Of a DNA stretch of 64,000 nucleotides, positions 16,105 to 33,765 are shown in pieces. The notes under the pieces are model-generated. The model made no database searches, was not told where the DNA came from, and saw nothing but the letters and a program-made list of their open reading frames with translations. The position numbers and the translations under genes are program-made. Within the stretch, counting starts at the first letter, position 1, and every line of letters begins with the position of its first letter. The DNA is taken from positions 1 to 64,000 of the forward strand of contig JAKQDH010000092.1 of assembly GCA_029558835.1 (NCBI GenBank). The letters are read 5' to 3'. The stretch is from Planctomycetota bacterium (GTDB lineage Bacteria > Planctomycetota > Phycisphaerae > UBA1845).

Positions 16105-16181
16105 CCGGGCTGCCGCGCGTAGCGCCCCACGGGCGCCGCGGCGGACCCGGTGGAACACCAGCGAGGATGGAGCGGAATCCA

Positions 16182-19100
16182 ATGCGTAGCATCGTAGCAC
16201 TCATGGTGATGGGCACTCTGGCCGCGCCGCGCGGAGACGGACGTGACGGGGCGACGCCTGAGGGGCCGGCGGGGCCCGCGAACCTGCGCTGTGAGTACCT
16301 GGTCGATCCGCTCGGCATCGACCAGACGCAGCCCCGCTTGTCCTGGGAAGTGGTCGACTCACGCCGCGGCGCCGTGCAAAGTGCCTATCAGATTCTGGTG
16401 GCCCAGGACCGCGCCACGCTCGAGAGCGATACCGGCGGCCTGTGGGACACCGGTAAGGTCACCTCGAGTGAGTCGACGCACATCGCGTATGCCGGTCCAC
16501 CCCTGCGCGCGCGGCAGCAGGTGTGGTGGAAGGTGCGGGTTTGGGACAAGGACGGGCAGCCGTCGTCGTGGAGCGCGCCGGCGCGCTGGTCGATGGGACT
16601 GCTGGAGCCCACCGACTGGCAGGCCCGCTGGATCGGTGATCCGACGCCGCCTCCGCCGGTGCGACCTCCGAACAACGGCTTCCACAGCGAACTCGCCGAA
16701 TCGACGGACACGGAGAAGTGGGTGGGCGTCGATCTGGGCGACGTGGTAGACATCGACACGATCTGTCTCTTCCCCGCGCGGCCCTACAACTGGTCCCCCG
16801 ACACGCCGGGCTTCCTGTATCCCCTGCGTTTCCGCATCCTGGTGGCGTCGCAGCCGGACTTCTCGGATGCCGTCACGGCGCTCGACCGGACGCGGGAAGA
16901 CGTTCCCAACCCCGGCAACGACTTTGAGACCTATGACTTTCGGCAGCTTCGCGGACGCTACGTACGCCTGGTGGCGACGCGGCTGCGCGAGCGTGATCCG
17001 GGTCACTACGGGTTGGCACTGGCGGAGTTGCAGGTGGTGTCGGCCAACCGTAGCGTCGCCGTGGGCAAGGCAGTCTCCGCCTCCGACAGCATTGAGCGGC
17101 CCGAGTGGTCCACCCGCTTCCTCGTCGACAGCGACCTGAAGTCACACGGCTTCACCGGGCTGGACCCGTTGCCGCCGCCGCTGCTGCGCAAGACGTTTCG
17201 CCTCCCCGAGGACGACACAGCCCGGCGGGCAGTGGTGTACGTGACGGCCCTGGGGTTGTACGAGCTGCGCCTCAACGGGCGGCGCGTCGGCGACCATCAG
17301 CTTGCGCCGGAGTGGACGGATTATCATAAACGAGTGCAGTACCAGACGTTTGAGGTCACGGAGCTGCTGAGGCGGGGCGACAACGTGATCGGCGCCCAAC
17401 TCGCGGACGGCTGGTACGCCGGACGGGTGGGATTGACGCACATCGTGCCCGGCGGTCGGCCGCGGGCGCTCTACGGGCGACAGCCGCGCCTGCTGCTGCA
17501 ACTGGAAGTCGAGTATGGGGACGGGCGGTGCGAGCGCGTGCTGTCGGATGCGTCCTGGCGCTGCACGACCGGCGGGCCGCTGCGCGCGGCCGATCTGCTG
17601 GACGGCGAGGTCTACGACGCCCGGCAGGAGATGCCGGGCTGGGACCAGGCGGGCTTCGACGATTCGAGCTGGTCGGCGGCCGGCGCGCTCGAGGCGCTTG
17701 TACCGCAGGCCCGGCTGGCGGTTCAACCCAATGAGCCGATTCGGATCACTCGCGAGATCGTCCCCGTGTCCGTGCGGGAGGCGGCGCCGGGCGTTCATGT
17801 ATTCGACCTGGGGCAGAACTTCGCCGGCTGGTGTCGCCTCAAGGTGCAAGGCCCGGCCGGGCGGACGGTGACGCTGCGGCACGCCGAAGTACTCAACCCC
17901 GACGGCACGATCTACACCGACAACCTGCGCGCCGTCGCGGCCACCGAACGCTACACGCTGCGCGGCACGGGTGTCGAAGTGTACGAGCCGCGCTTCACGT
18001 ACCACGGCTTCCGCTACGTCGAAGTCGCAGGCTTGACCGAACCGCCCTCGACCGACGCCCTCGTCGGCTGCGTCGTGCACTCAGACGCCCGCCCCGTGGG
18101 GGAGTTCGACTGTTCCGAACCGCTGCTCAACCGGCTCTGGCAGAACATTGTCTGGACGCAGCGTGCCAACCTGCACGGCGTGCCCACCGACTGCCCGCAG
18201 CGTGATGAGCGCCTGGGCTGGACCGGCGACATCCTCGCTTTTGCACAGACCGCGTGCTTCAGCATGGACATGGCGGCGTTCCTTACGAAGTGGATTCCGG
18301 ACCTGCGCGACGCCCAGGCCGCCGACGGGCGCTACCCTGACTTCGCTCCCCACCCCTTCGATCCTGAGGCGCGCTTCTCCGGCGTGGCGGCCTGGGGTGA
18401 CGCCGGGGTGTTCGTTCCCTGGTGTCACTACCGCAACTACGGCGACCGACGCCTGCTCGAGCAACACTTCGACTCGGCCCGCCGCTGGGTCGATTGGATT
18501 CAACGGAACAACCCCGACCTGCTCTGGAAGAACCAGCGCGGCAACGACTACGGCGACTGGCTCAACGCCGATACGCTGAAGCTGGCGGGCTGGCCGGAGA
18601 CGGGGGCCGCGATGCCGAAGGACGCCTTCGCCACGGCCTTCTTCGCCCGCTCCGCTCAACTCGTCGCCCAGATGGCCGAGGTGCTGGGCCGAACCGACGA
18701 CGCCCGGCGCTACGCCCAACTGGCCGGCGACGTCGGCCGGGCCTTCCAGCAGGCCTACGTCGATGCGGAGGGGGGCATGAGTGGTGATACACAGGCCGGC
18801 TATGCCATCGCCCTGGACTTCGACCTGCTGCCGGAGGCCTTGCGCGCGCCGGCCGTCGAGCGCATGGTCGCGTGTTTCGGCAAGTATGATGGCCAGCTCT
18901 CCACCGGCTTCCACAGCACCGTTCCCTTGATGAATGAGCTGACGCGCGCGGGACGCCTGGACGAGGCTTATCGGCTGGTTACCAATCGGAAGATGCCGTC
19001 GTGGGGCTACGCCATCGACCACGGCGCGACCACCATCTGGGAGCGCTGGGACGGCTACGTCGAGGGGCGCGGTTTCCAGGATCCTGGGATGAACTCGTTT

Positions 19101-19493
19101 GCCCACTACGCCCTGGGGTCCGTCGGCGAGTGGATGTTCCGTACGATCATCGGCATCAACCCCGATCCCGCGGTTCCCGCTTACAGGCACTTCATCCTCC
19201 GGCCGCAGCCGGGCGGGGGCTTGACGTGGGCGCAGGGCGCGTACCACTCGATTCGCGGGCGCATCGCGTGTGCCTGGCGGCTCGACGATGCCCGGATCAC
19301 GGTGACAGTCACGGTCCCGGCGAACACGTCGGCCACCCTGTACCTGCCGACGGGGAATCCCCAGACTGCGCTGGAGAGCGGCCGGCCCGTTGCCCAGGCA
19401 ACCGGCGTGCGCGTCGTGGACACGACCGGCAACGCCCTGGCATGCGAACTGGAGGCCGGGCAGTACGAGTTCTCCGCCGAACTTGCGAAATGA
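16182..19493 (+). CDS. Alpha-L-rhamnosidase (GH78) with discoidin-like insert
   Basis: Secreted glycoside hydrolase of 1103 residues that should release terminal alpha-L-rhamnose from plant or algal glycans. It has a short signal (MRSIVALMVMGTLAA), a Bac_rhamnosid_N region, a F5/8-C (discoidin)-like insert (KWVGVDLGDVVDIDTICLFP to ALAELQVVS), the Rhamnosid_N domain (LRKTFRL, GLYELRLNGRRVGD), an (alpha/alpha)6 catalytic barrel and a C-terminal beta-sandwich. Catalytic residues are visible in DCPQRDERLGWTGD (near residue 670, general acid) and TTIWERWDG (near 954, general base). GGAG lies 8 nt before the 16182 ATG, which is preferred over 16167. It has no transporter or regulator next to it. 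Confidence 0.9.
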   Translation: MRSIVALMVMGTLAAPRGDGRDGATPEGPAGPANLRCEYLVDPLGIDQTQPRLSWEVVDSRRGAVQSAYQILVAQDRATLESDTGGLWDTGKVTSSESTHIAYAGPPLRARQQVWWKVRVWDKDGQPSSWSAPARWSMGLLEPTDWQARWIGDPTPPPPVRPPNNGFHSELAESTDTEKWVGVDLGDVVDIDTICLFPARPYNWSPDTPGFLYPLRFRILVASQPDFSDAVTALDRTREDVPNPGNDFETYDFRQLRGRYVRLVATRLRERDPGHYGLALAELQVVSANRSVAVGKAVSASDSIERPEWSTRFLVDSDLKSHGFTGLDPLPPPLLRKTFRLPEDDTARRAVVYVTALGLYELRLNGRRVGDHQLAPEWTDYHKRVQYQTFEVTELLRRGDNVIGAQLADGWYAGRVGLTHIVPGGRPRALYGRQPRLLLQLEVEYGDGRCERVLSDASWRCTTGGPLRAADLLDGEVYDARQEMPGWDQAGFDDSSWSAAGALEALVPQARLAVQPNEPIRITREIVPVSVREAAPGVHVFDLGQNFAGWCRLKVQGPAGRTVTLRHAEVLNPDGTIYTDNLRAVAATERYTLRGTGVEVYEPRFTYHGFRYVEVAGLTEPPSTDALVGCVVHSDARPVGEFDCSEPLLNRLWQNIVWTQRANLHGVPTDCPQRDERLGWTGDILAFAQTACFSMDMAAFLTKWIPDLRDAQAADGRYPDFAPHPFDPEARFSGVAAWGDAGVFVPWCHYRNYGDRRLLEQHFDSARRWVDWIQRNNPDLLWKNQRGNDYGDWLNADTLKLAGWPETGAAMPKDAFATAFFARSAQLVAQMAEVLGRTDDARRYAQLAGDVGRAFQQAYVDAEGGMSGDTQAGYAIALDFDLLPEALRAPAVERMVACFGKYDGQLSTGFHSTVPLMNELTRAGRLDEAYRLVTNRKMPSWGYAIDHGATTIWERWDGYVEGRGFQDPGMNSFAHYALGSVGEWMFRTIIGINPDPAVPAYRHFILRPQPGGGLTWAQGAYHSIRGRIACAWRLDDARITVTVTVPANTSATLYLPTGNPQTALESGRPVAQATGVRVVDTTGNALACELEAGQYEFSAELAK

Positions 19494-19690: not shown

Positions 19691-20647
19691 TCAGATGCGC
19701 ACGTTCAGCAGCGGTTTGCAGAGCAGCGCGCACAGCAGCGACACGACGAAGAAGTACGCGACCCACCAGTCACTGCCGCTGGTCCACGAGTCCCGCGGCG
19801 GGTAGTCGATCCGGATGGACTGCACCGGGCAGTCCGCGGCCAGGGGGCGCTCTGCCGGATGCAGGATCATCGTGGTCCAGCCGGGTCCGGGGCGGACCGC
19901 GCTGACGCGCATCAGGCCGGTGCCGACGGCCAGTTCCTTGGTCACCTGCTGACCACCCGCGTCGAAGATGATTTGATGATAGCCGGGCGTCGTCGCGCGG
20001 ATGCCGAAGACCAGCTCGCGCAGGCTCGTCGCCCGCACCGGCGGACCGGTGAGCACCGCGCCGGCCACGTCCGTCACCTCGACGGCCGGCAACGGCGCGT
20101 CCGGCTCGCCTCCCAGCTTGAGCGTTACAAGCGTCTCTTCGCCAACCGCCAGCGGGCGATGCTGATACCACAGCCCCATCTGCCCCAGCAGCAGCAGCAT
20201 GGGTACCAGCATCACGAGCAGGGGGAACAGCGAATAGCGCAGCAGCTTCGCGGCCGACCAGATCACCCGCCCCTGGGCCTTGAACATCCCGCGCAGGTCG
20301 TACTTGAACAGCTTGATGGCCAGCAGGTTCGCCTTGATGCAGTCGCGCACACGCCCGATGGCCTGCTGATTGGAGGTGTACTTGAAGGCGACCAGCAGCA
20401 GGACGCCGACCCCGGCCGAGAGAAGCGTGTTCGACAGCCAGCCGGGCAATACTGCCACCGGCGCCAGCAGCACCCGCGCGACCGGGCTGCAAACGGCGTT
20501 GAGCCACGTGAACACGGGGGCGAGCGCCGGATTGGCCGCCTGCCCTGCCCAGACGAACGGGGCGCCCAAGTACGCCAAGCCGTCGTGCCAGAGCCACTGC
20601 ACGGCGTCACCGACGGTCAGCAGGAGCCAGTTGATTGCTTCCACCAT
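19691..20647 (-). CDS. Conserved-type membrane protein with Oxa1/YidC-like topology
   Basis: A 318-residue inner-membrane protein of unknown function, last gene of the AlkP cluster. The layout is: amphipathic N-terminal helices; a membrane segment (LLSAGVGVLLLVAFKYTS); about 40 residues of basic, helical cytoplasmic sequence (RVRDCIKANLLAIKLFKYDL); a strongly hydrophobic segment (FPLLVMLVPMLLLLGQMGLW); about 110 residues of extracytoplasmic beta-rich domain (VGEETLVTLKLGGEPDAPLP); and a C-terminal membrane segment. A membrane hairpin around a basic helical cytosolic arm recalls the Oxa1/YidC/EMC3 superfamily, but there is no clear sequence signature. It starts 19 nt after the 61-residue gene, so the two are very likely co-transcribed. 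Confidence 0.7.
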   Translation of the reverse strand: MVEAINWLLLTVGDAVQWLWHDGLAYLGAPFVWAGQAANPALAPVFTWLNAVCSPVARVLLAPVAVLPGWLSNTLLSAGVGVLLLVAFKYTSNQQAIGRVRDCIKANLLAIKLFKYDLRGMFKAQGRVIWSAAKLLRYSLFPLLVMLVPMLLLLGQMGLWYQHRPLAVGEETLVTLKLGGEPDAPLPAVEVTDVAGAVLTGPPVRATSLRELVFGIRATTPGYHQIIFDAGGQQVTKELAVGTGLMRVSAVRPGPGWTTMILHPAERPLAADCPVQSIRIDYPPRDSWTSGSDWWVAYFFVVSLLCALLCKPLLNVRI

Positions 20648-20666
20648 TCGACGCCTGCCGGCTCGC

Positions 20667-20852
20667 TTACTCGATGTACCCCAGCCCGCGGAGACGCTCC
20701 TCGACCTGCTTGGCGTCGTCGGCGGGGCCGATCCGGGCAAGTTCCTTCTCGATCAGGTGGACGATGAACTCCTCGGTGCTGGCGTAGCCCGCGGCCTGGG
20801 CGACCTGGCGGGCGCGTTCGTACAGATGCGGATCGAGCTTGATTTTGGGCAC
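20667..20852 (-). CDS. 61-residue ribbon-helix-helix-like protein with C-terminal LGYI motif
   Basis: A small protein between the Tat-type AlkP gene (27 nt upstream) and the membrane-protein gene (19 nt downstream). Residues 1-40 (KIKLDPHLYERARQVAQAAG, then YASTEEFIVHLIEKELAR) have the beta-helix-helix pattern of CopG/Arc proteins, which bind DNA or act as small oligomerisers. It ends in QVEERLRGLGYIE, nearly the same as a segment near the C-termini of the two sulfatase-like proteins of this cluster. The start is GTG with AAAGGAG 9 nt upstream. It may be an autoregulator or an assembly factor; neither is shown. Confidence 0.75.
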   Translation of the reverse strand: MPKIKLDPHLYERARQVAQAAGYASTEEFIVHLIEKELARIGPADDAKQVEERLRGLGYIE

Positions 20853-20879
20853 GAAAGCGAACTCCTTTCCCGACCCCGG

Positions 20880-22922
20880 CTACGGGGCCGGCGGGGACAG
20901 GATACTGCGTCCCACCATCTCCGGCGGCGCGGCGACGCCGAATTGCGCCAGAATCGTCGGCGCCAGGTCCTCCAGTTGCGGTCCCTCGGCCGCCAGCGGG
21001 CGATTGGCGAACACCACTCCCGGTACGTCCTCGGCCGCCTGGCAATGATCCGCACACCACGCCGAGTTGTTGTCCGCGAGCACGCTCTTGCCCATCTCGC
21101 CCAGCACGGATCCCCACGACACGCGGTAGTCACGGTGATACCCGACGATGAGATCGGGTGCCGACGCCGCCTGGGGGCCCCGATACACCTGCTCGGCCCG
21201 ATACACCTTGCGGATCACCGGGGCACCATCCTGATCGCGCACCGCCTCCAGCTTGGCCGCCAGTTCGTCCAGCAACGCCTCCCGCTGCGGACCGGGCTCG
21301 ACGATGCCGTCGCGCTCCCGCCCTCTCAGGTTCAAGTACAGACTGTTAAGTCCCAGCCCGTACGCGCGGGTGCGATACCAGTCCACGCCGCCCAGCAGCG
21401 AGGTCGCGTCGCCCGGGTGAATGTACCCTTCCTGGCGCAGCCAACTACATAGATTGAACTGCCGCCGGAAGTTGCCCATGCCGTGATCGCTCATCACCAG
21501 CAGCGTGGCCGTCTCGCCGTAGCGGGCCAGCAGGTCGGCGACGATGCCGTCCATCTTCCGGTACAGTTCCTTCACTCGTTCGTGGCCCGCCCGTGCCTGC
21601 TCGGCGTCGCGCACGGGGTGCTTCTGCTCGGAGTCCCACCAGAACATGTGCGGCTGCAAGTCCGTGCAGGCGAAATAGAAGAACAGCATGCCGTCATCGT
21701 AGTGCCGCAGGGCGTATTCTAATAGTTCGCGGCGCTCCTGCAACACGAAATCGGCTTGGGCGGCGTACTCTTCATCCGTGAAGACGCCGTTGGAGAGCGC
21801 TTTATGGTCTTCCTGGAAACCGGCCGTGTAGAACCGCCCCAGGTCGTCGGCAATCCGCCGCACAAACCCCGGCGGCTCGGAGATCGGCAGCGCCGGGTCA
21901 GCGGGGTCGATGTTGATCGGCGTCACGTACAACCGGAACCTCGGCCCGACCTCCTGTAAATAGAAACGGCAGATGCCGCTCTGGTGCTCGTCGGGCAGGA
22001 AGCTCGGCATGCGCAAACGGAACTTCAGTCGGACCCAGCGGCTCCACTGGCCGCGACGCAGCAGCAGACGCTGACCCTGCACGTCGATCACGGCCGACTG
22101 CGCGTCGAGGTCGCGGTGGACCGCGAAATCAACCGTCGTCGGGGCGGGGTTCTTCAGGAGGGTGTTGGTCGGGCCGGTAATGCGCCCCCGCGCCGTGTCC
22201 TGTTGGAAGGTCAGTCCCCTGCGCAGGCCGCCGGCCTCCGGGCGCGGCTCCGCGGGACCATGCTCACAGAAGAACTGATACGTACCGTATGTCCCGAGCA
22301 TGTCGGGCGTCCCCAGCCCCGCCAGAGCGCGATGGTGGCCATGTTGCGACGGGGTTGCGGGATAATTGGAAGGAATCTCATACACATGCGTCGACACGCC
22401 GGCCCCGTCCAGGTAGTCCCAGAAGGGGGTGCCCTGCCGGAAGATCACCGGGCGGGCGGGATCGTGACCGAACGGCCAGCAGGGAATCTGCAGCTTGTGC
22501 TCGCCCACCTCCCAGTAGCCGCTGCCGCGCGAGTTGCCGGCGGCTGCAAACATGGGCATGTACTGCTGGGCGGGATCACGGTGGATGAAATCAAAGATGC
22601 CGTGCACGCCCGGGCCGGCTCCCACGATGAAACTGGAGAACGCCACCGGCGTCTGCGGCGGGATGCTGGTCCCCAGGCGGCGATAGCCCCCGGCCGCCCG
22701 CAGGCTGCTGAGGGCAGGCAGCTCACCGGCGTCCATCATCCGTTCGGTGAGGAACGGGTCCATGCCGTCGAAGCCGATGACGATGACCTTGCCGCCCCGC
22801 CCCGCGCGTGAGCTTCGCCCCCGCGCGCCGGCCGGTTGCCAACCGCTCGCCACCCCGGCCGCCAGCGCGGCCGACGTCTTCAGAAACTCCCGCCGGCCGA
22901 GGGCGCGCTTACGACCCGACAT
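20880..22922 (-). CDS. AlkP-superfamily phosphohydrolase/transferase, COG3379 type, Tat-exported
   Basis: A 680-residue periplasmic metalloenzyme of the alkaline-phosphatase superfamily. The N-terminus has a twin-arginine signal (GRREFLKTSAALAAGVA), so it is probably folded with metal in the cytoplasm. Active-site residues seen: metal ligand Asp52 in IGFDGMDP, probable Thr nucleophile at 91 in PPQTPVAFSSF, metal ligands in MSDHGMGNFRR, and a C-terminal His in CADHCQ. The substrate is unknown; relatives include phosphodiesterases and phosphomutases. Its ATG overlaps the 3' end of the upstream AlkP gene by 14 nt, which suggests translational coupling. Confidence 0.85.
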   Translation of the reverse strand: MSGRKRALGRREFLKTSAALAAGVASGWQPAGARGRSSRAGRGGKVIVIGFDGMDPFLTERMMDAGELPALSSLRAAGGYRRLGTSIPPQTPVAFSSFIVGAGPGVHGIFDFIHRDPAQQYMPMFAAAGNSRGSGYWEVGEHKLQIPCWPFGHDPARPVIFRQGTPFWDYLDGAGVSTHVYEIPSNYPATPSQHGHHRALAGLGTPDMLGTYGTYQFFCEHGPAEPRPEAGGLRRGLTFQQDTARGRITGPTNTLLKNPAPTTVDFAVHRDLDAQSAVIDVQGQRLLLRRGQWSRWVRLKFRLRMPSFLPDEHQSGICRFYLQEVGPRFRLYVTPINIDPADPALPISEPPGFVRRIADDLGRFYTAGFQEDHKALSNGVFTDEEYAAQADFVLQERRELLEYALRHYDDGMLFFYFACTDLQPHMFWWDSEQKHPVRDAEQARAGHERVKELYRKMDGIVADLLARYGETATLLVMSDHGMGNFRRQFNLCSWLRQEGYIHPGDATSLLGGVDWYRTRAYGLGLNSLYLNLRGRERDGIVEPGPQREALLDELAAKLEAVRDQDGAPVIRKVYRAEQVYRGPQAASAPDLIVGYHRDYRVSWGSVLGEMGKSVLADNNSAWCADHCQAAEDVPGVVFANRPLAAEGPQLEDLAPTILAQFGVAAPPEMVGRSILSPPAP

Positions 22923-25107
22923 GCGCCACCTCCTTCGCCTGCCCGCCTGCCGCCGGCTCGGCGGCGTCGATGCCGAGTACCTTGCCGTCCAGGTGCCTGG
23001 GCACGTCCACCCCGAAGAGGCTCAGGATCGTCGGGGCGAAGTCGGTCATGCGCGGCCCCTCCGTGGTGATGCGCCGGTTGCAGAGCAGCACACCGGGCAC
23101 GAGGGGCGGGTCGATGCAGTGGTCGGCGCTCCACGCTTTCCGGTTGTCGTGGAACACGGTGTCCGTGATGTCCCCGATGGCCGCCTCCCAGGACACGCGG
23201 TAACCTTCATTGTAACCAACCAGCACGTCCGGCGCGTTCTCCGTATAGGGGCCGACATAAGAGTCATACGCGTTGTACGCCTTTACCACTGCCACGTCGT
23301 CATGCCGGGGGTCGCGCAGGCCGGTGAGCTTCGTACACAGTTCGGCCCGCAACGCGGCCGCCTCCGCGCCGGGCTTCACGATGCCCTGCCGCTCGCGCCC
23401 TTCCAGGTTCAGATAGATGCCCGCCAGGCCCAGGGCATACGCGCGGGTGCGCGACCAGTCCACGGTGGCCAGGTACTTTCTGCCTGCCGGCGGCTCCTTG
23501 AGGTGCAGGTATCCGTTGTCAATCAGCCAGCGGTTCAGGTCGACCCCATAGCGGAAGCTCTTGCACCCATGATCGCTGATGACGAAGAGTACAGTATCCT
23601 CGTCGTCGCACTTGGCCAAGGCGCGGCCCACGACGCGGTCCATGCGCTCGAACATCTCCGGGATGGCGTCGCGCAGACGCGGTTCTCCGAAGCCCTCGTG
23701 CGCCGGATGCCGTGGATCGAGATAACGCCAGAACATGTGCTGAATGCGGTCCGAGCCGTCGAACACGCACACCACCAGACCGCGCCGTACCTTGTTCAGC
23801 GCATCGAAGAACATGACCTCGCGTTCAGCATCGCCCTCCACGCACTGGTGCAGGAAACCCGGGTCTTGCAGGATGCGCTCGTTATGAGCCCAGGTATCCT
23901 CCGCCAATCCCAGCGTGGCGAACGGCCCTTGCGCCTTGGCGAGATACGTGGAGAACACGCACGGGTGTGAAATCGGCAGGGCCGGCTGCGCCGGGTCGAG
24001 CTGCAGCGGTGTAACGTATAACTCGAAGTGCGGCTCCGTGGACAACAGTAGAAACTGGCAGATGCCGTGCACCTTGGTCCCCGGTGCCGCGCGAAAGTGG
24101 AAACGGATCCACGGCGTGTACTCACCGCGCATAAGCGTGTGCTTCGTGCCGCACAGCTTCAACTCCACAGAGTCAGGCCGACCGTTGAAGGTAACGGTGA
24201 ACGGAGCGCGCATGACCTCCTCATCCGCACGCAGGGGATTGCGCGGTCCGATCAGGTGCGCCGCAATCACCTTGCCCTGCCGCTGGACGCGGATGCGCTC
24301 CCCGCCGGTGTAAATGTCCTCCGCCTCGGGTCGGGTGGTGTAGAAACTGAACGTCCCCTGGCTGCCGCGCAGGTCCGGCACACACATGGCCGACAGCAGC
24401 GTCCCGCGGAACTTCTCCGGCGGAAACGTGATGGGCATGCGGATGATGCTGCTGAAGATGCCGTGCGCGCCGAGGTCGTTCCAGAACGGCCGGCCCTTGC
24501 GCAGCAAACGCACCTCGGGTTTCCCCAGCGGCACGCGGTAGGGACCCAGCCGCACGGTGCGCGTGCTGCCGCCGATGTGCACGCTGGAAAGCACCGGCAC
24601 GTACCCCTTGCGATCCACGGTGAGGAAGTCGAAGACGTTGTGTTTGCCCGGATTGCAGCCGGTCAGAAACGACGACCAGGCGACCGGGGTCAGGGCCGGC
24701 AGGGTCGTTCGTAACCGGCAGTATGTCCCCATCTCCGCCAGGCGAGCGAAGTTCGGCAGCCGCCCCTCGGCCATATACTTCTCGAGCAGGGTCGGCTCCA
24801 GCCCGTCGAGCCCGAGCACGACCACGCGCTTAACCCGGCTGCGGGCAAACGCCCGCCGGCCCCGGATTGCCCGCACGACCCACCGCACCGGCCAGGTGAG
24901 CAAGGTCAGCAACGCCGAGGCCATGGCCGCCAGCACCGCCAGGAACGAACCCAGCACCGCGAAGCCCGCCCCGGGCCCGATGTACCCGAAAGCCGGGGCG
25001 GTCACCGCCAGCATCAGTACGGCGCCGAGCGCAATTGTGCGCCCATCCGGATATCCGAGCCCCGCGCGGGCGGCGGCCCGGCACGTTCTCAGTGTCTTCG
25101 GCGTCAT
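22909..25107 (-). CDS. AlkP-superfamily phosphohydrolase/transferase, COG3379 type, membrane-associated
   Basis: A 732-residue paralogue of the next gene downstream. The N-terminus has a signal-like segment (RTIALGAVLMLAVTAPAFG), then YIGPGAGFAVLGSFLAV and a second hydrophobic stretch, so the enzyme is probably anchored with its catalytic domain outside. Active site: Asp101 in LGLDGLEP, probable Thr nucleophile at 140 in PALTPVAWSSF, SDHGCKSFRYG, and a His in SADHCIDPP. The 25107 ATG lies within a family-E repeat and has no good ribosome-binding site; the only other in-frame ATG, at 25014, would truncate the signal. The open frame upstream to 25305 is read from repeat DNA and is not believed. 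Confidence 0.85.
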   Translation of the reverse strand: MTPKTLRTCRAAARAGLGYPDGRTIALGAVLMLAVTAPAFGYIGPGAGFAVLGSFLAVLAAMASALLTLLTWPVRWVVRAIRGRRAFARSRVKRVVVLGLDGLEPTLLEKYMAEGRLPNFARLAEMGTYCRLRTTLPALTPVAWSSFLTGCNPGKHNVFDFLTVDRKGYVPVLSSVHIGGSTRTVRLGPYRVPLGKPEVRLLRKGRPFWNDLGAHGIFSSIIRMPITFPPEKFRGTLLSAMCVPDLRGSQGTFSFYTTRPEAEDIYTGGERIRVQRQGKVIAAHLIGPRNPLRADEEVMRAPFTVTFNGRPDSVELKLCGTKHTLMRGEYTPWIRFHFRAAPGTKVHGICQFLLLSTEPHFELYVTPLQLDPAQPALPISHPCVFSTYLAKAQGPFATLGLAEDTWAHNERILQDPGFLHQCVEGDAEREVMFFDALNKVRRGLVVCVFDGSDRIQHMFWRYLDPRHPAHEGFGEPRLRDAIPEMFERMDRVVGRALAKCDDEDTVLFVISDHGCKSFRYGVDLNRWLIDNGYLHLKEPPAGRKYLATVDWSRTRAYALGLAGIYLNLEGRERQGIVKPGAEAAALRAELCTKLTGLRDPRHDDVAVVKAYNAYDSYVGPYTENAPDVLVGYNEGYRVSWEAAIGDITDTVFHDNRKAWSADHCIDPPLVPGVLLCNRRITTEGPRMTDFAPTILSLFGVDVPRHLDGKVLGIDAAEPAAGGQAKEVAHVGS

Positions 25108-25726
25108 GGGTGCCGTGCTTTCCCGCGACCCCAGTCGCGGGCAAGCATGCCTCTGCTGCCGCACGACATGCCCACCCCCGCCTGCGGCGGGTGAGGGCAT
25201 GGCACGCGCCACGCTGAACAGGCACGAAACCCGCGGCGCGCTGGCGTCGCGGCATTCCCCACGGTGATGTAGCCTCAAACCTGCACGTCGCACTGCTTTA
25301 CTCACTTCCGCAGGGCGGCTTCACCCGCCGCGGTGGGACTGCCGTCGAAGCCCTGGGTCAGGGATTCTACCCCACAAACGGCCGCTGCGTCCTGCCCTGG
25401 AGCCCACGGGTGGGACGCCCGTGCCACGGGTCGTGCCACCCGCGGACGGGAGGCCCGTGCCACGGCATCACTGATGAGTTTGTAGTGCAACGGGGCGCCG
25501 CCTTCAAACGGAAAAACGGCTCGTGAATCGTGTGCACCACGCCCGCGCGTGGCGCGACATGCCCACCGCGACGGGGCGGCACGCTGCGGTTGGAGCCAGG
25601 CACGCGATTGGCGGCGGGCATGCCGGCCCTGGGCTCGGGCACAGCCGCCCGTCGGACCGGGCGTCCCCGGCGACGGGTCGCTTTCCGCAGCAACCAGTAC
25701 GCACCGGGGGTGGGGAGGCAGGGGGG
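25108..25726. repeat. Repeat-filled gap inside the AlkP cluster (families E and D)
   Basis: No gene. Family E occurs in reverse (about 25095-25205: GTGTCTTCGGCGTCATGGG, TTTCCCGCGACC, GTCGCGGGCAAGCATGCC, then CCCACCCCCGCCTGCGGCGG and GTGAGGGCATGGC). Family D occurs twice in tandem (about 25408-25462: CCCACGGGTGGGACGCCCG, then GACGGGAGGCCCGTGCCACG). From 25540 to 25640 there are degenerate E-like pieces. This gap splits the AlkP cluster into two transcribed pairs. Confidence 0.6.
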
Positions 25727-27268
25727 CTAGGGCCGGTTATCGGGCTGCGTCGGTGACCCGCTGGGCTGTTGCTCGGCAGCGGTATCCGGCTGCGCATCGT
25801 CGCCCCCCACGTACCCGAGGCTTTCGAGCTGCCGGCGGACATCATCTGGCAGCTTGGGCGCGGCGGCGGCGGCCGGAAAACGCTTCCGGAAGCCGTTCAG
25901 CCATTCCGTCGCGCGCTCCATGTCCGTCTGCAACTGGCGCAGCAGCGGATGCCGCGTGTCCACCACGGCCTGCTTCTCCGCCGGGTCCGCCCGCAGATCG
26001 AAGGCTATCGTCTGCTGGTTCTGCTCGTTGCGAATGAGCTTGCCTTCGAGGCGACGGAACGACCGCAATTCCCGCCCGGCCGAGAACAACTCGCTGACCG
26101 CCATGTCACTTCCATCGGTCGGCTTCGTGGGCGTCCCTTCCAGCAACGGGACCCGGCTGCTGCCCATGACGTCGGTGGCCAGCGGCATGCCGAGCAGTTC
26201 CAGCACGGTGGGCATCACGTCAATGATGCGGACCTGGGCAGGCACGCGCAGCCCGCCCGTCAGCCGGCCCGGGTAACGCACGATCCAGGGGATGCGGATC
26301 ACCTCGTCGAAGAGCGTGTGACGGTGTCCCTTGTGCCCGTGCTCGAAGAACTCCTCGCCGTGGTCGGCCACCAGCATGACGATCGTCGAGTCGCGCAGGT
26401 TCAGGGCGTCCAGCTCATCCAGAATCCTGCCGACGTGGGCGTCGGTCCAGGCGATCTCGCCGTCATAGAGCGCCATGAGGTGCCGGATGTCACGCGGAGG
26501 CATCTTGGCGTTGATGGCCGGGTCGAGCAGGAAGTTCTGTCCCGTGACGGTCCCGGTGTAGTCCGGGTCGAACATGCGGTCGTAGGGCGGGGGCGGAATA
26601 AAATCAAAATGCACGTCCCACAGGTGCACAAACATGAAGAACGGTCGCCGCTGGTGGTCATGCAACCAGTTCCTCACTTCCTCGAAGACGCGCGGGTTGG
26701 TGACGTCGGCGTTGGACGCGCCCTGCACGACACCGCCGTCGAGGCTCTGCCCGGCCGCCAGTACCTTCAGTGTCAGGTCCTTGAACGATGTACAGTCCAC
26801 GTACTTGTCGAACCCCTGCCCCAGCCCGAACACCGGATGCAGCGCCGGACCGGAGAAGAAGCCCACGGTCGCGTACCCGGCCGCCTGCAAGCGCTCGGCC
26901 AGCGTGGTGTGACTGTCCGCCAGACGCTGATCCATGTCCTGGCAGCGGTGCACGCTGTCAGCGAGGCCGGTAAACAGGGCGGCATGGGCGGGCAAGGTCC
27001 ACGAGGTACTGCTGATGGCGTTCTCGAACAACGCGCCTTCCGCCGCCAGTTGGTCGATCCGCGGACTCGTCGGGCGCTGGTAACCGTAGCAGCCCAGGTG
27101 ATCGGGGCGGAGCGTATCGACCGAAATGAGCAGTACGTTCGGCCAGGTTGCATCCGCCTGGACCGTCGGCTTCCTGATGGTGCCGGCGTCCCGTCGGCTG
27201 CACGTCACGGGCAGCAGCAGGGCCAAGACCAAGGGCAGGAGACCGGTACCTCGCAGGACCCGCCTCAC
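25727..27268 (-). CDS. Sulfatase-like AlkP-superfamily enzyme with Thr nucleophile (first of two)
   Basis: A 513-residue exported enzyme. The N-terminal signal (RGTGLLPLVLALLLPVTC) gives a poor lipobox, so either Sec release or lipidation is possible. The sulfatase fold is clear: VLLISVDTLRPDHLGCYGY (Asp51), VADHGEEFFEHGHKGH and a C-terminal FDLRADPAE. At the nucleophile position the formylglycine motif CxPxR is absent; the sequence is SSTSWTLPAHAALFTG with Thr91. This predicts phospho- rather than sulfo-chemistry, as in EptA/LtaS-like transferases. Near the end it has VRRQLESLGYVGGDD, then a disordered tail. The GTG start overlaps the upstream stop by 4 nt (GTGA), with GGAG 8 nt upstream. 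Confidence 0.85.
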   Translation of the reverse strand: MRRVLRGTGLLPLVLALLLPVTCSRRDAGTIRKPTVQADATWPNVLLISVDTLRPDHLGCYGYQRPTSPRIDQLAAEGALFENAISSTSWTLPAHAALFTGLADSVHRCQDMDQRLADSHTTLAERLQAAGYATVGFFSGPALHPVFGLGQGFDKYVDCTSFKDLTLKVLAAGQSLDGGVVQGASNADVTNPRVFEEVRNWLHDHQRRPFFMFVHLWDVHFDFIPPPPYDRMFDPDYTGTVTGQNFLLDPAINAKMPPRDIRHLMALYDGEIAWTDAHVGRILDELDALNLRDSTIVMLVADHGEEFFEHGHKGHRHTLFDEVIRIPWIVRYPGRLTGGLRVPAQVRIIDVMPTVLELLGMPLATDVMGSSRVPLLEGTPTKPTDGSDMAVSELFSAGRELRSFRRLEGKLIRNEQNQQTIAFDLRADPAEKQAVVDTRHPLLRQLQTDMERATEWLNGFRKRFPAAAAAPKLPDDVRRQLESLGYVGGDDAQPDTAAEQQPSGSPTQPDNRP

Positions 27269-28824
27269 TTCGGTTTCTCCTCCTCCCCGATGTAGCCGAG
27301 ACTCTGCAACCGCTCGCGCACCTTCTCCGGCAGGTGCGGCACCACCGCCGGCACCGGCCAGAGCTGCCGGAATTGGGTAAGCCACTTGCCCGCCTTCTCC
27401 GCGTCGCGCAACGCCGCCTGGACCACGATGTGGCTGGGATCAGTCAGGCGGTTCCGCTCGGCCGGGTCGGTCGCCAGATGGAACGCCACGGCCTCGCCGG
27501 TCTGCTCCTGGCGGATCAGTTTGCGGTCCGGCCGGCGGAAGGCACGCAGTGCCCGTCCCATTGTGAACAGTTCGCTGACGGCCAGGTTCTCCTGCGCCAA
27601 CTCGCGGCCCTCCAGCAGCGGCACCAGCGTCTGACCCATCAACTCGGGCGGCACGGTGAGCCCCAGAAGGTCCAGTACCGTCGGGGCCACGTCGATGATC
27701 CTGACCTGCCCCGCCAGGCGCAAGCCGGGCGTGATTCGACCGGGGAAGCGCACCAGCAGCGGAATGCGGATCACTTCATCGTAGAGCGTATGGCGGTGCC
27801 CCTTCTGCCCGTGCTCGAAGAACTCGGTGCCGTGATCGGACAGCACGATGAGCAACGCGGAGTCCTTCAGCCCGTGGGTCTCGAGGTCGGCCACGATCTT
27901 GCCCACGTGGGCGTCCGTCCAGGCGATCTCCCCATCGTACAGGGCGATGAGATGCGCGAGGTCGCCTTTGGGCATCCGGGCATTGATGGTATCGTCGTAG
28001 ATGAAGTCGCGCCCGGTGACGGAGCCGTGATAATCAGGGTCGAACCGGCGGTCATACGGCGCCGGGGGGATGAAATCGAAGTGGCAGTCGTACAGGTGAA
28101 CGAACAGGAAGAACGGTCGGCGTGGTCCATCCGCGAGCCACTTGTGCACGGCCTCAAACACGCGTGGGCTGGAGATGTCCGCCATCGCCGCGCGCTGCAG
28201 AGGTCCCCCGGTGGCGATACCCGGCATACTGACCTCCTCGGCGCTGAGTTGGGCATAGGAGGTACAGTCCACATAGGTGTCAAAACCCTGTCCCAGGCCA
28301 TACGCCGGGTACAGCGTCGGCCCCGAGAAGAACCCCGCCGTCGTGTAACCGACCGCCTGCAGCCGCTCCGCCAGCGTGACGTGTCCCTCGGCCAGTGCCT
28401 TGTCGGTGTCCAGCGCGCCGTGCACGGTGTCCGCGAGGCCCGTGAACAACGCCGCGTGCGCCGGCAACGTCCAGGAAGTGCTGCTGACGGCCTGCTCGAA
28501 CAACGCGCCTTCACCCGCAAGCTTGTCGAGGTTCGGGCTCGTCGACCGGGCGTAGCCGTAGCAGCTCAGGTGGTCCGGGCGCAGCGTGTCGATGGAGATG
28601 AGCACCACATTCGGCCACGAGGCGTCGGCCAAGAGGCGCTTCGGCTCGCCGGCGGGCTCCTCGTCACGCGGGCAGGCCCCGACCAACGCCAACGGAACCA
28701 GCGACAACAGCAGCGCCGCACTCGCCGCCCACCGGGCGACCCGGTCCGGGCGGCGCGCACCGTCGCCCCAGATGACCTCAGCCCGCCGATGCAAAATCGG
28801 CACAGCCGTGCGCGGTCGCGACAC
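27265..28824 (-). CDS. Sulfatase-like AlkP-superfamily enzyme with Thr nucleophile (second of two), lipoprotein
   Basis: Close paralogue of the gene it overlaps by 4 nt. The 519-residue protein has a basic N-region, a hydrophobic stretch and a VGAC lipobox (Cys51), so it is probably a lipoprotein. Active-site segments: LISIDTLRPDHLSCYGY, SSTSWTLPAHAALFTG with Thr119 in place of formylglycine, and LSDHGTEFFEHGQKGHRHTL. It ends VRERLQSLGYIGEEEKPK, so the shared LGYI motif is nearly terminal. The start chosen is GTG at 28824 with GGAG 7 nt upstream; the frame is open to 28902 without a ribosome-binding site. The natural substrate is unknown. Confidence 0.85.
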   Translation of the reverse strand: MSRPRTAVPILHRRAEVIWGDGARRPDRVARWAASAALLLSLVPLALVGACPRDEEPAGEPKRLLADASWPNVVLISIDTLRPDHLSCYGYARSTSPNLDKLAGEGALFEQAVSSTSWTLPAHAALFTGLADTVHGALDTDKALAEGHVTLAERLQAVGYTTAGFFSGPTLYPAYGLGQGFDTYVDCTSYAQLSAEEVSMPGIATGGPLQRAAMADISSPRVFEAVHKWLADGPRRPFFLFVHLYDCHFDFIPPAPYDRRFDPDYHGSVTGRDFIYDDTINARMPKGDLAHLIALYDGEIAWTDAHVGKIVADLETHGLKDSALLIVLSDHGTEFFEHGQKGHRHTLYDEVIRIPLLVRFPGRITPGLRLAGQVRIIDVAPTVLDLLGLTVPPELMGQTLVPLLEGRELAQENLAVSELFTMGRALRAFRRPDRKLIRQEQTGEAVAFHLATDPAERNRLTDPSHIVVQAALRDAEKAGKWLTQFRQLWPVPAVVPHLPEKVRERLQSLGYIGEEEKPK

Positions 28825-29197
28825 TGCTCGTCTCCGTTGTTCCCCGGCGCGTGGCCCACCGCCCCCAAAGGCAGGCGTCGAATCGCGGTGTTCGACGACC
28901 ACGCAGTGCCGCGTCAGCGTCGCGATGACGCTGACGGTAAGCGCATGCTACCTCCTGACGCGGGCGGCGCCAACCCCACTTCCTGCGAAACGTCCCGCCC
29001 CCGTGCCGCTTCGTCTGCCACTAACTGAACTATCGGACTGCGGCCGACAACTCCATCAACAAACCAGCGCCGTTTCGCCGGCCGCGCCCGCGGCCATCGT
29101 GAGCGCAGCGCAATCGGCACTTTTGCACTCACACCTGCCTGCGTCCAGTACCCGCGGACCGAACCGCGGGCGTGTCGTCCCTGACCGGCGTTCTGCG
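28825..29197. other. 373-bp gap with leader-ORF and hairpin structure
   Basis: Separates the TPR-glycosyltransferase stop from the first sulfatase-like gene on the minus strand. Apart from the short ORF and hairpin listed separately, I see no gene. This is the likely promoter region for the two sulfatase-like genes. Confidence 0.4.
28912..28946 (-). promoter_or_regulatory. Possible leader peptide with overlapping hairpin
   Basis: On the minus strand AGGAGG (28956-28951) lies 4 nt before an ATG (28946) that opens a 10-codon ORF, MRLPSASSRR, ending at 28914. The last codons overlap a perfect 10-bp hairpin, CGTCAGCGTC (28912-28921) and GACGCTGACG (28927-28936). A translated leader next to a stable hairpin about 90 nt before the first sulfatase-like gene could form an attenuator. 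There is no U-run, so control of translation would be more likely than termination. Confidence 0.3.
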
Positions 29198-31228
29198 TTA
29201 CGGTTGGACGTCCGGGGACGCGGGCGCGCCCGTGCCTGCGCGTCGCCGTTGACGCTCCTGCAGCCCGCGCAGAAGCTCGAGCGCCGCCTGCTCCTGCCGA
29301 ATGTGTAAAGCTGTCTGAAGTGCGGCAACCGCCTCGTCCACCTCTCCCCGCCGGGAGTGGATCACCCCGAGGTTGTAGTGCGCCTCGAACAGGTTGGGGT
29401 TGGCCAGGACGGCCGCACGCAGCTCCCGCAGCGCGCCTTCCTCATCCCCCTGCTCGCGCAGCACCAGCGCGAGGTTCACCCGCGCTTCCGCGAGCTTCGG
29501 GTCGAGCCGGGCCGCCGTAGCGAACGCCTCCGCGGCGGCGGCTGGGGAACGTTGCCGCAGGAGCGCGCAGCCCAGGCCGTACCACATGTCCGCCCGGTCC
29601 CCCGTGATTCGCAGAGCGGCCCGCAGCTCCTCCACCGCCTCCTCCGCCCGCTCCAGTTTGAGCAGCGTCAGACCGAGTTGCGCACGCGCGAGGGCGAAAT
29701 CCGGTTCGAGGGCGAGGGCCCGACGAAGATAGGGAAGAGCCTCCGCCGGCTGTCCCAGTTCGCGGAGGATGATGCCGAGGTTGCAATAGGCACTCGCGTA
29801 CCCCGGCTTCAGCTCCAGGGCACGCCGGGCATGCCGGAGCGCTTCCTCGTAACGCCGGGCATCACTCAGGAGACTGGCCAAGTTGTTGTGGACATACGGT
29901 GACGCGGGAGCGTGGGTCAGCATGTGACGGTACAGCGTCTCCGTGTCCTGCCACTTACTCAGATACATCCGAGTGGCGCGCGCCGCCAGGAAACCGACGA
30001 TGATCACAGCGGCGACGACCACCGCCCGATACGCAGACGTGCGCGCCTGTGCGCGCGCGCCGCTCCAGACGTGCGTCAATAGCGAGCAGAGCAGCAGACA
30101 CACCCCCACCGCCGGCAGGTACACGTACTTGTCGGAGGCCAGGACCCAACTGTACCTGACCAGACCGAGCGTGGGCGCCAGAGCCGCCACGAAGCACGCG
30201 GCACTGACCACCCCCGCCCGCGTCCGACACCAGGAGAGCAACAGCACGACCACCACTCCGATAACGAGAAGAAGGTCGGTGACAGGCAGTGCGGCTGGTA
30301 TCGGATACACCGAGGTCAAGTGCACCGGCCAGATGATCTTGCCCGCGTAGAAGCTGAGGAGGTACGCCACCAGCAGGGGAAGCCGGGCGGCGCCGCTCTC
30401 GATCGGCACCTCAACGCAGGCCGTGCGGGCGTGCGAGATGAGCGTGACAACCGCGGACAACCCGGCGACCGCGAAGAAGGGGATGGTCCTCAGCAGGGTG
30501 GCTCGGCTCAGGCGGCGCAGCGGCCAGTAGTCCAGCAGCACCAGCAGTAACGGCAGCGGCGTGCTGGTGGGTTTCGACAGCAGGGCGAGCACGAAGGCGG
30601 CCAGGCAGCCGCCGTAGCCCAGGCGGCTGCCGCGCTGGGCGTAACGCACGTACAGGACCAATGACCACAACGCAAACAGCGTCGCCAACAGCGTCTTGCG
30701 CTCACCCACCCACGCGACGGGCTCCACCGTGAGCGGATGCAGCCCGAACAGCACGGCGACGAAGGCAGCCGGCCAGACCTGGCCGAAGAGCAGGTACAGC
30801 AGCATCAGCAACGAGACCGTGCAGAGCACGTGGAGCGTCAGGTTGGTGCGATGGAAGGGACGCAGGTCGTCGGGCCGGCCTCCCAGCGCGTAGTCCACCA
30901 TCAACGAGGTCATCGTCAGCGGCAGGTAGTAGCCCTGCACCGTGGAGGGTTCGAGTACCTCGCCGAAGAACTGTCCCACCGACCGCCAACTCGGCTGCCG
31001 CACCGCCGGGTTGTCGACCAGAAACGGCTGGTCGTCAAAGGACAGGGCGCGGGCGGAGAGGACGGGCCAGTGGACGAGGGTCACGCTGAGCGCGACGCCG
31101 CCGATCGCCAGCAGCACCCGCACGGCCTCATGCCGCGTGGTGCGCGGCGGTGATAAACGGGCCTCGCACCCGCCCGGCGCTTCCACCCCCCGAGCGTCCG
31201 CGCGGCGAACCTGACCGGAACGGCGCAT
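29198..31228 (-). CDS. TMTC-like membrane O-glycosyltransferase with C-terminal TPRs
   Basis: A 676-residue GT-C-type protein. Multiple membrane segments cover about residues 35-440. The early loop has LSFDDQPFLVDNPAVR and the later HPLTVEPVAWVGERKTLLATLF segment typical of bacterial homologues of TMTC O-mannosyltransferases. The last 230 residues are tetratricopeptide repeats (ASPYVHNNLASLLSDARRYE onwards). It should move a sugar from a polyprenyl-phosphate donor to an extracytoplasmic acceptor; sugar and acceptor are unknown. Its final two to three TPR units are nearly the same as those of the neighbouring glycosyltransferase. The start ATG has only a weak ribosome-binding site. Confidence 0.8.
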   Translation of the reverse strand: MRRSGQVRRADARGVEAPGGCEARLSPPRTTRHEAVRVLLAIGGVALSVTLVHWPVLSARALSFDDQPFLVDNPAVRQPSWRSVGQFFGEVLEPSTVQGYYLPLTMTSLMVDYALGGRPDDLRPFHRTNLTLHVLCTVSLLMLLYLLFGQVWPAAFVAVLFGLHPLTVEPVAWVGERKTLLATLFALWSLVLYVRYAQRGSRLGYGGCLAAFVLALLSKPTSTPLPLLLVLLDYWPLRRLSRATLLRTIPFFAVAGLSAVVTLISHARTACVEVPIESGAARLPLLVAYLLSFYAGKIIWPVHLTSVYPIPAALPVTDLLLVIGVVVVLLLSWCRTRAGVVSAACFVAALAPTLGLVRYSWVLASDKYVYLPAVGVCLLLCSLLTHVWSGARAQARTSAYRAVVVAAVIIVGFLAARATRMYLSKWQDTETLYRHMLTHAPASPYVHNNLASLLSDARRYEEALRHARRALELKPGYASAYCNLGIILRELGQPAEALPYLRRALALEPDFALARAQLGLTLLKLERAEEAVEELRAALRITGDRADMWYGLGCALLRQRSPAAAAEAFATAARLDPKLAEARVNLALVLREQGDEEGALRELRAAVLANPNLFEAHYNLGVIHSRRGEVDEAVAALQTALHIRQEQAALELLRGLQERQRRRAGTGAPASPDVQP

Positions 31229-31339
31229 GGTTCCGAGTGTACCGGCGACGCCGGTTACTGTCGAACGCCCAGATGGGGGGCGCGGGGGTCGGCTGCCGAC
31301 GGCAGCCGCCCCGCCCCAGCGAGGTGCCCACCGCAGAGC

Positions 31340-33592: not shown

Positions 33593-33765
33593 GTACGCAG
33601 CCTTCCTGGGCATCTGCGTTAACACGGGCCGGTGGCGGGTGGCATTATAGTCCGCGTCGCCGCGCGGACCACCCCGGTCATTCCGCGTCGCGGTGTGCTC
33701 CGTCGGCGACCGCGCGACTGACGGCACCCCCGGCCGTGCGCGGTCTCCGGGCGGCTACAGCGCGT

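Follow-up and report, generated by a model that had tools for sequence, protein, structure and literature searches.

A co-inherited four-gene module of planctomycetes with AlkP-superfamily enzymes, a ribbon-helix-helix-like protein and a DUF106/EMC3-type membrane protein

In a 64,000-nucleotide stretch of planctomycete DNA, here called the window, four AlkP-superfamily enzymes are encoded in a row with a 61-residue protein and a membrane protein, which raises the question of which of these six genes work together and what chemistry they might perform. Our main reading, with a probability of roughly 45%, is that the last four genes specify a membrane-straddling AlkP group-transfer system that modifies surface glycans or lipids; sulfuryl transfer is the likeliest reaction, phosphoryl transfer a possible one. 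This reading builds directly on gene order, co-occurrence, profile-derived folds, intact catalytic residues and the distribution of a C-terminal tail, and extends from these to topology, complex formation, donor, acceptor and reaction. It would offer a testable function for AlkP enzymes of a kind that is widespread and unstudied.

The locus and its conserved unit

A preliminary description of the window had reported six minus-strand genes with short overlaps and gaps, and this layout is borne out: all six reading frames are open and the spacings agree. Going downstream, the order is S1, S2, C1, C2, RHH, MEM (Table 1), with overlaps of 4 nt (GTGA) between S1 and S2 and of 14 nt between C1 and C2, and with gaps of 27 nt from C2 to RHH and 19 nt from RHH to MEM. 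The genes fall into two sub-blocks because at least 421 nt separate S2 from C1, the true start of which probably lies inside the longest reading frame drawn here. The proposed presence of two sulfatase-like and two PF01663-type enzymes likewise agrees with the profile matches, to PF00884 for S1 (1e-48) and S2 (9.6e-45) and to PF01663 for C1 (6e-30) and C2 (1.4e-30). The window's RHH and MEM proteins had zero matches in the Pfam, NCBIfam and PADLOC profiles. As PADLOC matches none of the six proteins, a known anti-phage defence system was rejected as a reading, and no named system of such composition was found in the literature on COG3379, on bacterial DUF106 or on PAPS and Planctomycetota, as the preliminary description had supposed. 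Immediately upstream of S1, positions 29198-33727 (minus strand) encode a pair of membrane proteins that end in TPR repeats, a PMT_2 (mannosyltransferase) domain being present in one; neither is kept next to the module in relatives. Convergent with MEM lies a 1108-aa rhamnosidase-like ORF (16167-19493, plus strand), its identity judged by eye only.

Table 1. Features of the six-gene locus, in window coordinates
Feature	Coordinates	Strand	Description
S1	27265..28902	-	PF00884 sulfatase-like; coordinates from longest start
S2	25727..27268	-	PF00884 sulfatase-like lipoprotein; GTG start at 27268
C1	22909..25305	-	AlkP-superfamily PF01663; coordinates from longest start
C2	20880..22922	-	AlkP-superfamily PF01663; Tat signal; predicted to be exported
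RHH	20667..20852	-	61 aa, ribbon-helix-helix-like, C-terminal LGY tail ERLRGLGYIE
LGY tail of RHH	20667..20705	-	VEERLRGLGYIE + stop
MEM	19691..20647	-	318 aa, putative DUF106/EMC3-type Oxa1-superfamily membrane protein

The association of the last four genes is more than chance, the same order recurring throughout the phylum. MEM was found in 42 of the 60 relatives searched, and the order C1-C2-RHH-MEM recurs almost throughout the relatives' 20-kb neighbourhoods and across 17 other planctomycete families; S1/S2-like, TPR and DegT genes are not recurrent in these neighbourhoods. A strict script recovered the complete order in 65 of 81 neighbourhoods, the incomplete ones being mostly explained by contig ends or ORF-overlap problems. 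In a phylum survey of 294 genomes drawn across Planctomycetota, MEM matches counted as strong (E ≤ 1e-20) occurred in 42 genomes, and strong RHH matches (E ≤ 1e-11) marked the identical set of 42, which represents 17 families. Bona fide full-length C1 (score above 850 bits, beneath which values fall off clearly) was present in 41 of the 42 and in one other genome (G327), and the only genome with MEM and RHH that lacked it (G198) has a locus cut by the contig end. Presence is patchy inside single families, some genomes of f38, for example, carrying the module and others not, and the module genes thus come and go together.

MEM lies elsewhere than RHH, or on another contig, in five genomes (G024, G012, G020, G029 and G079), and in all five RHH adjoins C2 or C1. 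The preliminary description would have been refuted by homologues that seldom lie near AlkP genes; within Planctomycetota the opposite holds, RHH adjoining C1 or C2 in nearly every case, also in genomes where MEM is found elsewhere. C1, C2, RHH and MEM are inherited together as one module. The earlier proposal of a working unit stands insofar as AlkP enzymes, RHH and MEM recur together, and it needs trimming to four genes, S1 and S2 not being kept alongside.

The AlkP enzymes and the link to sulfation

The active-site residues of C1 (D167, T206, D516, H523, D578, H579 and H729) and of C2 (D52, T91, D421, H425, D479, H480 and H626) are conserved, and the metal ligands and the Ser/Thr nucleophile are retained in nearly all of 71 C1 and 74 C2 sequences. 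By alignment and profile, both are PF01663-type members of the AlkP superfamily with complete predicted active sites. The N-terminus of C2 carries a Tat signal in the window and a lipoprotein signal in many relatives, by which C2 is predicted to be exported. That of C1 consists of a signal-like helix, a near-invariant YIGPGAG motif, a second hydrophobic segment (TM2) and then a strongly basic juxtamembrane stretch; in 48 of 48 sequences, TM2 has a hydropathy of at least 1.95 and is followed by a net charge of +5 to +10. Because of this basic stretch, the catalytic domain of C1 is predicted to be cytoplasmic, placing C1 and C2, by prediction, on different faces of the membrane. All four enzymes had been described as extracytoplasmic, which is not contradicted for the other three but does not suit C1.

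PAPS is made by ATP sulfurylase and APS kinase. One or both of these enzymes are encoded just upstream of the module in 21 of 40 phylum-level loci, belonging to 8 families, in a cassette of RHH2 (a paralogue of RHH), ATP sulfurylase, a sulfatase-like enzyme and APS kinase that is not always complete in the stretch read. A cassette of this composition lies at L133:3562-6476, its sulfatase-like enzyme being 305 aa long and without a Cys nucleophile and its RHH2 carrying an LGY tail, and further RHH2-PAPS cassettes were seen at L112, L115, L120, L122, L127, L132, L134, L135 and L149. Genome G255 has the cassette alone, without the module. Among the loci read from the window's own class, none has PAPS genes beside the module, and the CysC gene of the window genome is on a different contig with unrelated genes around it. 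APS kinase is present in 42 of 42 module genomes and also in about 146 of 252 others, counts that ignore phylogeny.

A second line of evidence comes from Halobacterium salinarum, in which the AlkP-superfamily proteins Agl30 and Agl31 (VNG1056C and VNG1057C) sulfate the N-glycan; deletion of agl30/agl31 strongly reduces N-glycan sulfation, and their expression in Haloferax confers it (Zaretsky et al., 2025, PMC11980604). The published cloning primers encode the C-termini HLEDLGYL for Agl30 and LEELGYT for Agl31, and that for a third AlkP protein, VNG1063H, encodes KELGYIE in one reading frame (PMC11980604). From these primer-encoded C-termini, it follows that the LGY tail is carried by demonstrated AlkP glycan sulfotransferases; the LxxLGY tail as a feature of sulfotransferases is our own inference and not a published family definition. 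Agl30/Agl31 resemble the module in their AlkP domain, their LxxLGY tail, the pairing of one membrane-bound with one soluble enzyme and their place in a surface-glycan pathway, but they are sulfatase-type AlkPs rather than PF01663/COG3379 enzymes, their tail is in cis, and neither an RHH nor a MEM partner has been described for them. They are closer to the sulfatase-type AlkPs S1 and S2, which carry LxxLGY on the enzyme itself, than to C1 and C2, which do not (LGY in cis in 0 of 71 C1 and 0 of 83 C2 sequences).

It is possible, though in our estimation doubtful, that C1 and C2 are instead phosphotransferases or phosphodiesterases, either similar to phosphoethanolamine or phosphoglycerol transferases or processing lipid-linked phosphate intermediates, and that the tie with sulfate activation is a habit of particular lineages. 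Phosphodiesterases and pyrophosphatases gave PF01663 its name, there are weak matches to phosphonoacetate hydrolase and iPGM, and the window's class has no PAPS genes adjoining the module, all of which would suit such a reading; the linkage to ATP sulfurylase and APS kinase in 8 families and the tail on experimentally supported sulfotransferases argue against it. The phosphoryl chemistry at the cell surface named in the preliminary description was an assumption; the neighbouring genes, together with the LGY tail, speak no less strongly for sulfuryl transfer, which we favour as the likelier chemistry of the module.

The membrane protein and the ribbon-helix-helix protein

MEM has three predicted membrane segments (approximately TM1 70-88, TM2 142-160 and TM3 293-311), a basic arm at 89-141 that would be cytosolic, and a filamin-like Ig domain at about 163-245, between TM2 and TM3. 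A profile built from 44 diverse members matches the archaeal DUF106 protein MJ0480 (PDB 5c8j) with E=6.4e-8 in an alignment that runs collinearly through TM1, the coiled basic arm, TM2 and then TM3, and the insert between TM2 and TM3 matches a filamin-C Ig domain (E=9e-6, profile). The Pfam profile PF01956 (EMC3_TMCO1) matches 4 of the 44 members (best 8.7e-7); the window's MEM alone has no Pfam match, and the PF01956 search of its own genome was empty. The arm has a charge of +4 to +9 in 39 relatives, the outer part averages -2.5 and the C-terminus is basic; charge and hydropathy fit a topology with the N-terminus outside and the C-terminus inside. An AlphaFold model of MEM was weak (pLDDT 60, 3 sequences), with the Ig part recovered, and a fold search with it returned Ig domains (filamin, S-layer Ig) and chance helical matches; no Oxa1 structure stood among the listed matches, an absence of little weight given so weak a model and a list that Ig matches fill.

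The Oxa1-like character proposed for this protein is thus upheld by the profile match to MJ0480 and by PF01956, and we class MEM, by its profile, as a bacterial DUF106/EMC3-type protein of the Oxa1 superfamily. DUF106 was described as a family of archaea, and YidC has been proposed, via DUF106, to belong to the same superfamily (PMC8887752); against that description, a branch in bacteria that bears an Ig domain and keeps to a fixed operon is out of the ordinary. MEM shares with MJ0480 and with EMC3/TMCO1 (PF01956) the collinear series of TM1, basic arm, TM2 and TM3, and differs from them in being bacterial, in its Ig domain and in its operon with AlkP enzymes, an insertase role being a candidate only. 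Relative to YidC (PF02096), MEM would belong to the same proposed superfamily but has no PF02096 match; the sole PF02096 match of the genome is a separate YidC on contig C31, and MEM is therefore ruled out as the genome's YidC. A DUF106/EMC3-type protein would thereby be placed in bacteria alongside a normal YidC.

One might suppose that MEM serves purely as an insertase or chaperone, dedicated to inserting and folding C1 (or a different membrane client) and taking no part in catalysis, and that, given the genome's separate YidC, it would be a specialised one. We regard this as a tentative option: the homology to MJ0480 and EMC3 speaks for it, but the large Ig domain, predicted to be extracytoplasmic, suggests a partner outside, and strong MEM always accompanies RHH in the phylum survey, as it does C1 bar one truncated case. 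The reading of MEM as part of a group-transfer system is the one pursued below.

The small protein had been called ribbon-helix-helix-like, and modelling lends this some substance. An AlphaFold monomer model places helices at 8-21 and 26-40 behind a short N-terminal segment, without a strand, and the neighbours in a fold search are nearly all RHH proteins (NikR, Arc, ParD, MazE and PutA), with low scores (Z below 5, E above 0.1); a sequence search of the PDB returned nothing significant. RHH proteins have a mean net charge of -4.4 and, in the alignment, a Lys that hardly varies in the strand that would contact DNA. All strong RHH copies close with GLGY[ILM] and a single further residue, the motif usually following Arg or Lys (RGLGYIE, RGLGYLE, KGLGYLE, RGLGYIS and close variants). 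In other families ATP sulfurylase adjoins RHH2, whose C-terminus reads LKNLGYL or close to it. LxxLGY also follows the catalytic domain in 12 of 14 sulfatase-like neighbours, and small TPR-type lipoproteins near the PAPS cassette end in LGY as well (L112:17359-18018, L120:2478-2984, L122:2569-3063, L134:16480-16986 and others). Since exported lipoproteins and sulfatase-like enzymes also carry the tail, it may have some other, general role; it is nevertheless a candidate hallmark of AlkP-type sulfuryl or phosphoryl transferases in bacteria and archaea.

A tblastn search of plasmids with C2 led to haloarchaeal AlkPs, many of them within surface-glycan clusters. Among 23 such loci, 12 have the tail in cis and none of these lies beside a small tail protein, whereas 7 of the 11 AlkPs without a cis tail adjoin a small tail-bearing protein (Fisher p=0.0013, with only two independent lineages behind it: the seven loci are six closely related Halorussus and one Haloarcula). 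The Haloarcula locus encodes a 62-aa RHH protein 61 bp from the AlkP gene on the opposite strand, and hhalign matches this protein to the planctomycete RHH profile along 59 columns free of gaps (E=3.4e-11), by which it is, at the level of sequence, a full-length RHH homologue; one Halorussus small tail protein aligns to the same profile at 8.3e-7. The haloarchaeal COG3379-like AlkPs in surface-glycan clusters (for example L153 and L196) resemble the module as C1 homologues with a small tail-bearing partner, of RHH type in Haloarcula, and differ from it in being single enzymes with no evident signal and no MEM-like gene in their annotated neighbourhoods. An annotated arylsulfotransferase family gene (L158:6809-8179) is present in Halorussus salilacus near a tail-less AlkP and its small tail protein.

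This alternation of cis and trans tails amounts to evidence of the Rosetta-stone type that RHH physically serves an AlkP enzyme, and the module suggests an RHH protein as an enzyme accessory subunit. That RHH is instead a DNA-binding autorepressor of its operon, its shared tail being incidental or a stability signal, is unlikely: such a role would suit the predicted fold and the near-invariant Lys, but not the invariant LGY tail common to RHH and exported enzymes, the haloarchaeal cis/trans pattern, the average net charge of -4.4, or the split modules, in which RHH stays with the AlkP genes rather than with MEM.

A possible mechanism, and the neighbouring enzymes S1 and S2

Under the group-transfer reading, C1 would be held in the inner membrane by its N-terminal helices and would act on a membrane-linked acceptor at the cytoplasmic side, with PAPS as activated sulfate or else a phospho donor, and by way of a Ser/Thr nucleophile and two metals. 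The cytoplasmic RHH protein, probably dimeric, would dock on C1 as an obligatory accessory subunit and supply in trans the LxxLGY tail that related enzymes have in cis. MEM may scaffold the complex, touching C2 outside through its Ig domain and, on the inner side, C1 and the acidic RHH through its basic arm; its membrane groove may also hold a lipid-linked substrate. Exported C2 would complete or trim the modification outside; PAPS is not expected outside the cell, which counts against the mechanism as far as C2 is concerned. More speculatively, the module could be an envelope machine in which a pair of AlkP sulfotransferases on opposite membrane faces is held by an EMC3/DUF106-like Ig protein and needs an LGY peptide in trans from an RHH protein turned from DNA binding to service as an enzyme subunit, the same cis/trans logic applying in haloarchaea; so specific a version is rather doubtful.

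S1 and S2 are local neighbours outside the conserved unit. Both have lipoprotein-type signals and an LGY tail in cis (LQSLGYIG in S1), and both have Thr (SWTLPAH) at the nucleophile position instead of the formylglycine Cys, without the C/S-x-P-x-R motif, so that they are not type I sulfatases; sulfatases of the CAPSR/CTPTR type are encoded elsewhere in the genome and lack the tail. BLASTP pairs the whole of S1, through to its tail, with a haloarchaeal homologue, a Natrinema enzyme whose C-terminus is LEDLGYL (E=5e-36). A six-gene unit was rejected, S1/S2-like genes not being kept beside the module in relatives, and that all six genes, from S1 to MEM, serve one pathway is improbable, the single strand, the tight spacing inside the sub-blocks and the tails of S1 and S2 being outweighed by the gap between S2 and C1 and by S1/S2-like genes adjoining the module only here and there, in varied positions and on varied strands. 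The window genome encodes two further AlkP enzymes with such tails, ending in LADLGYLE (C99:16622-17896; L181) and LRSLGYIQ (C110:42810-43712; L174; both in G000, the window genome).
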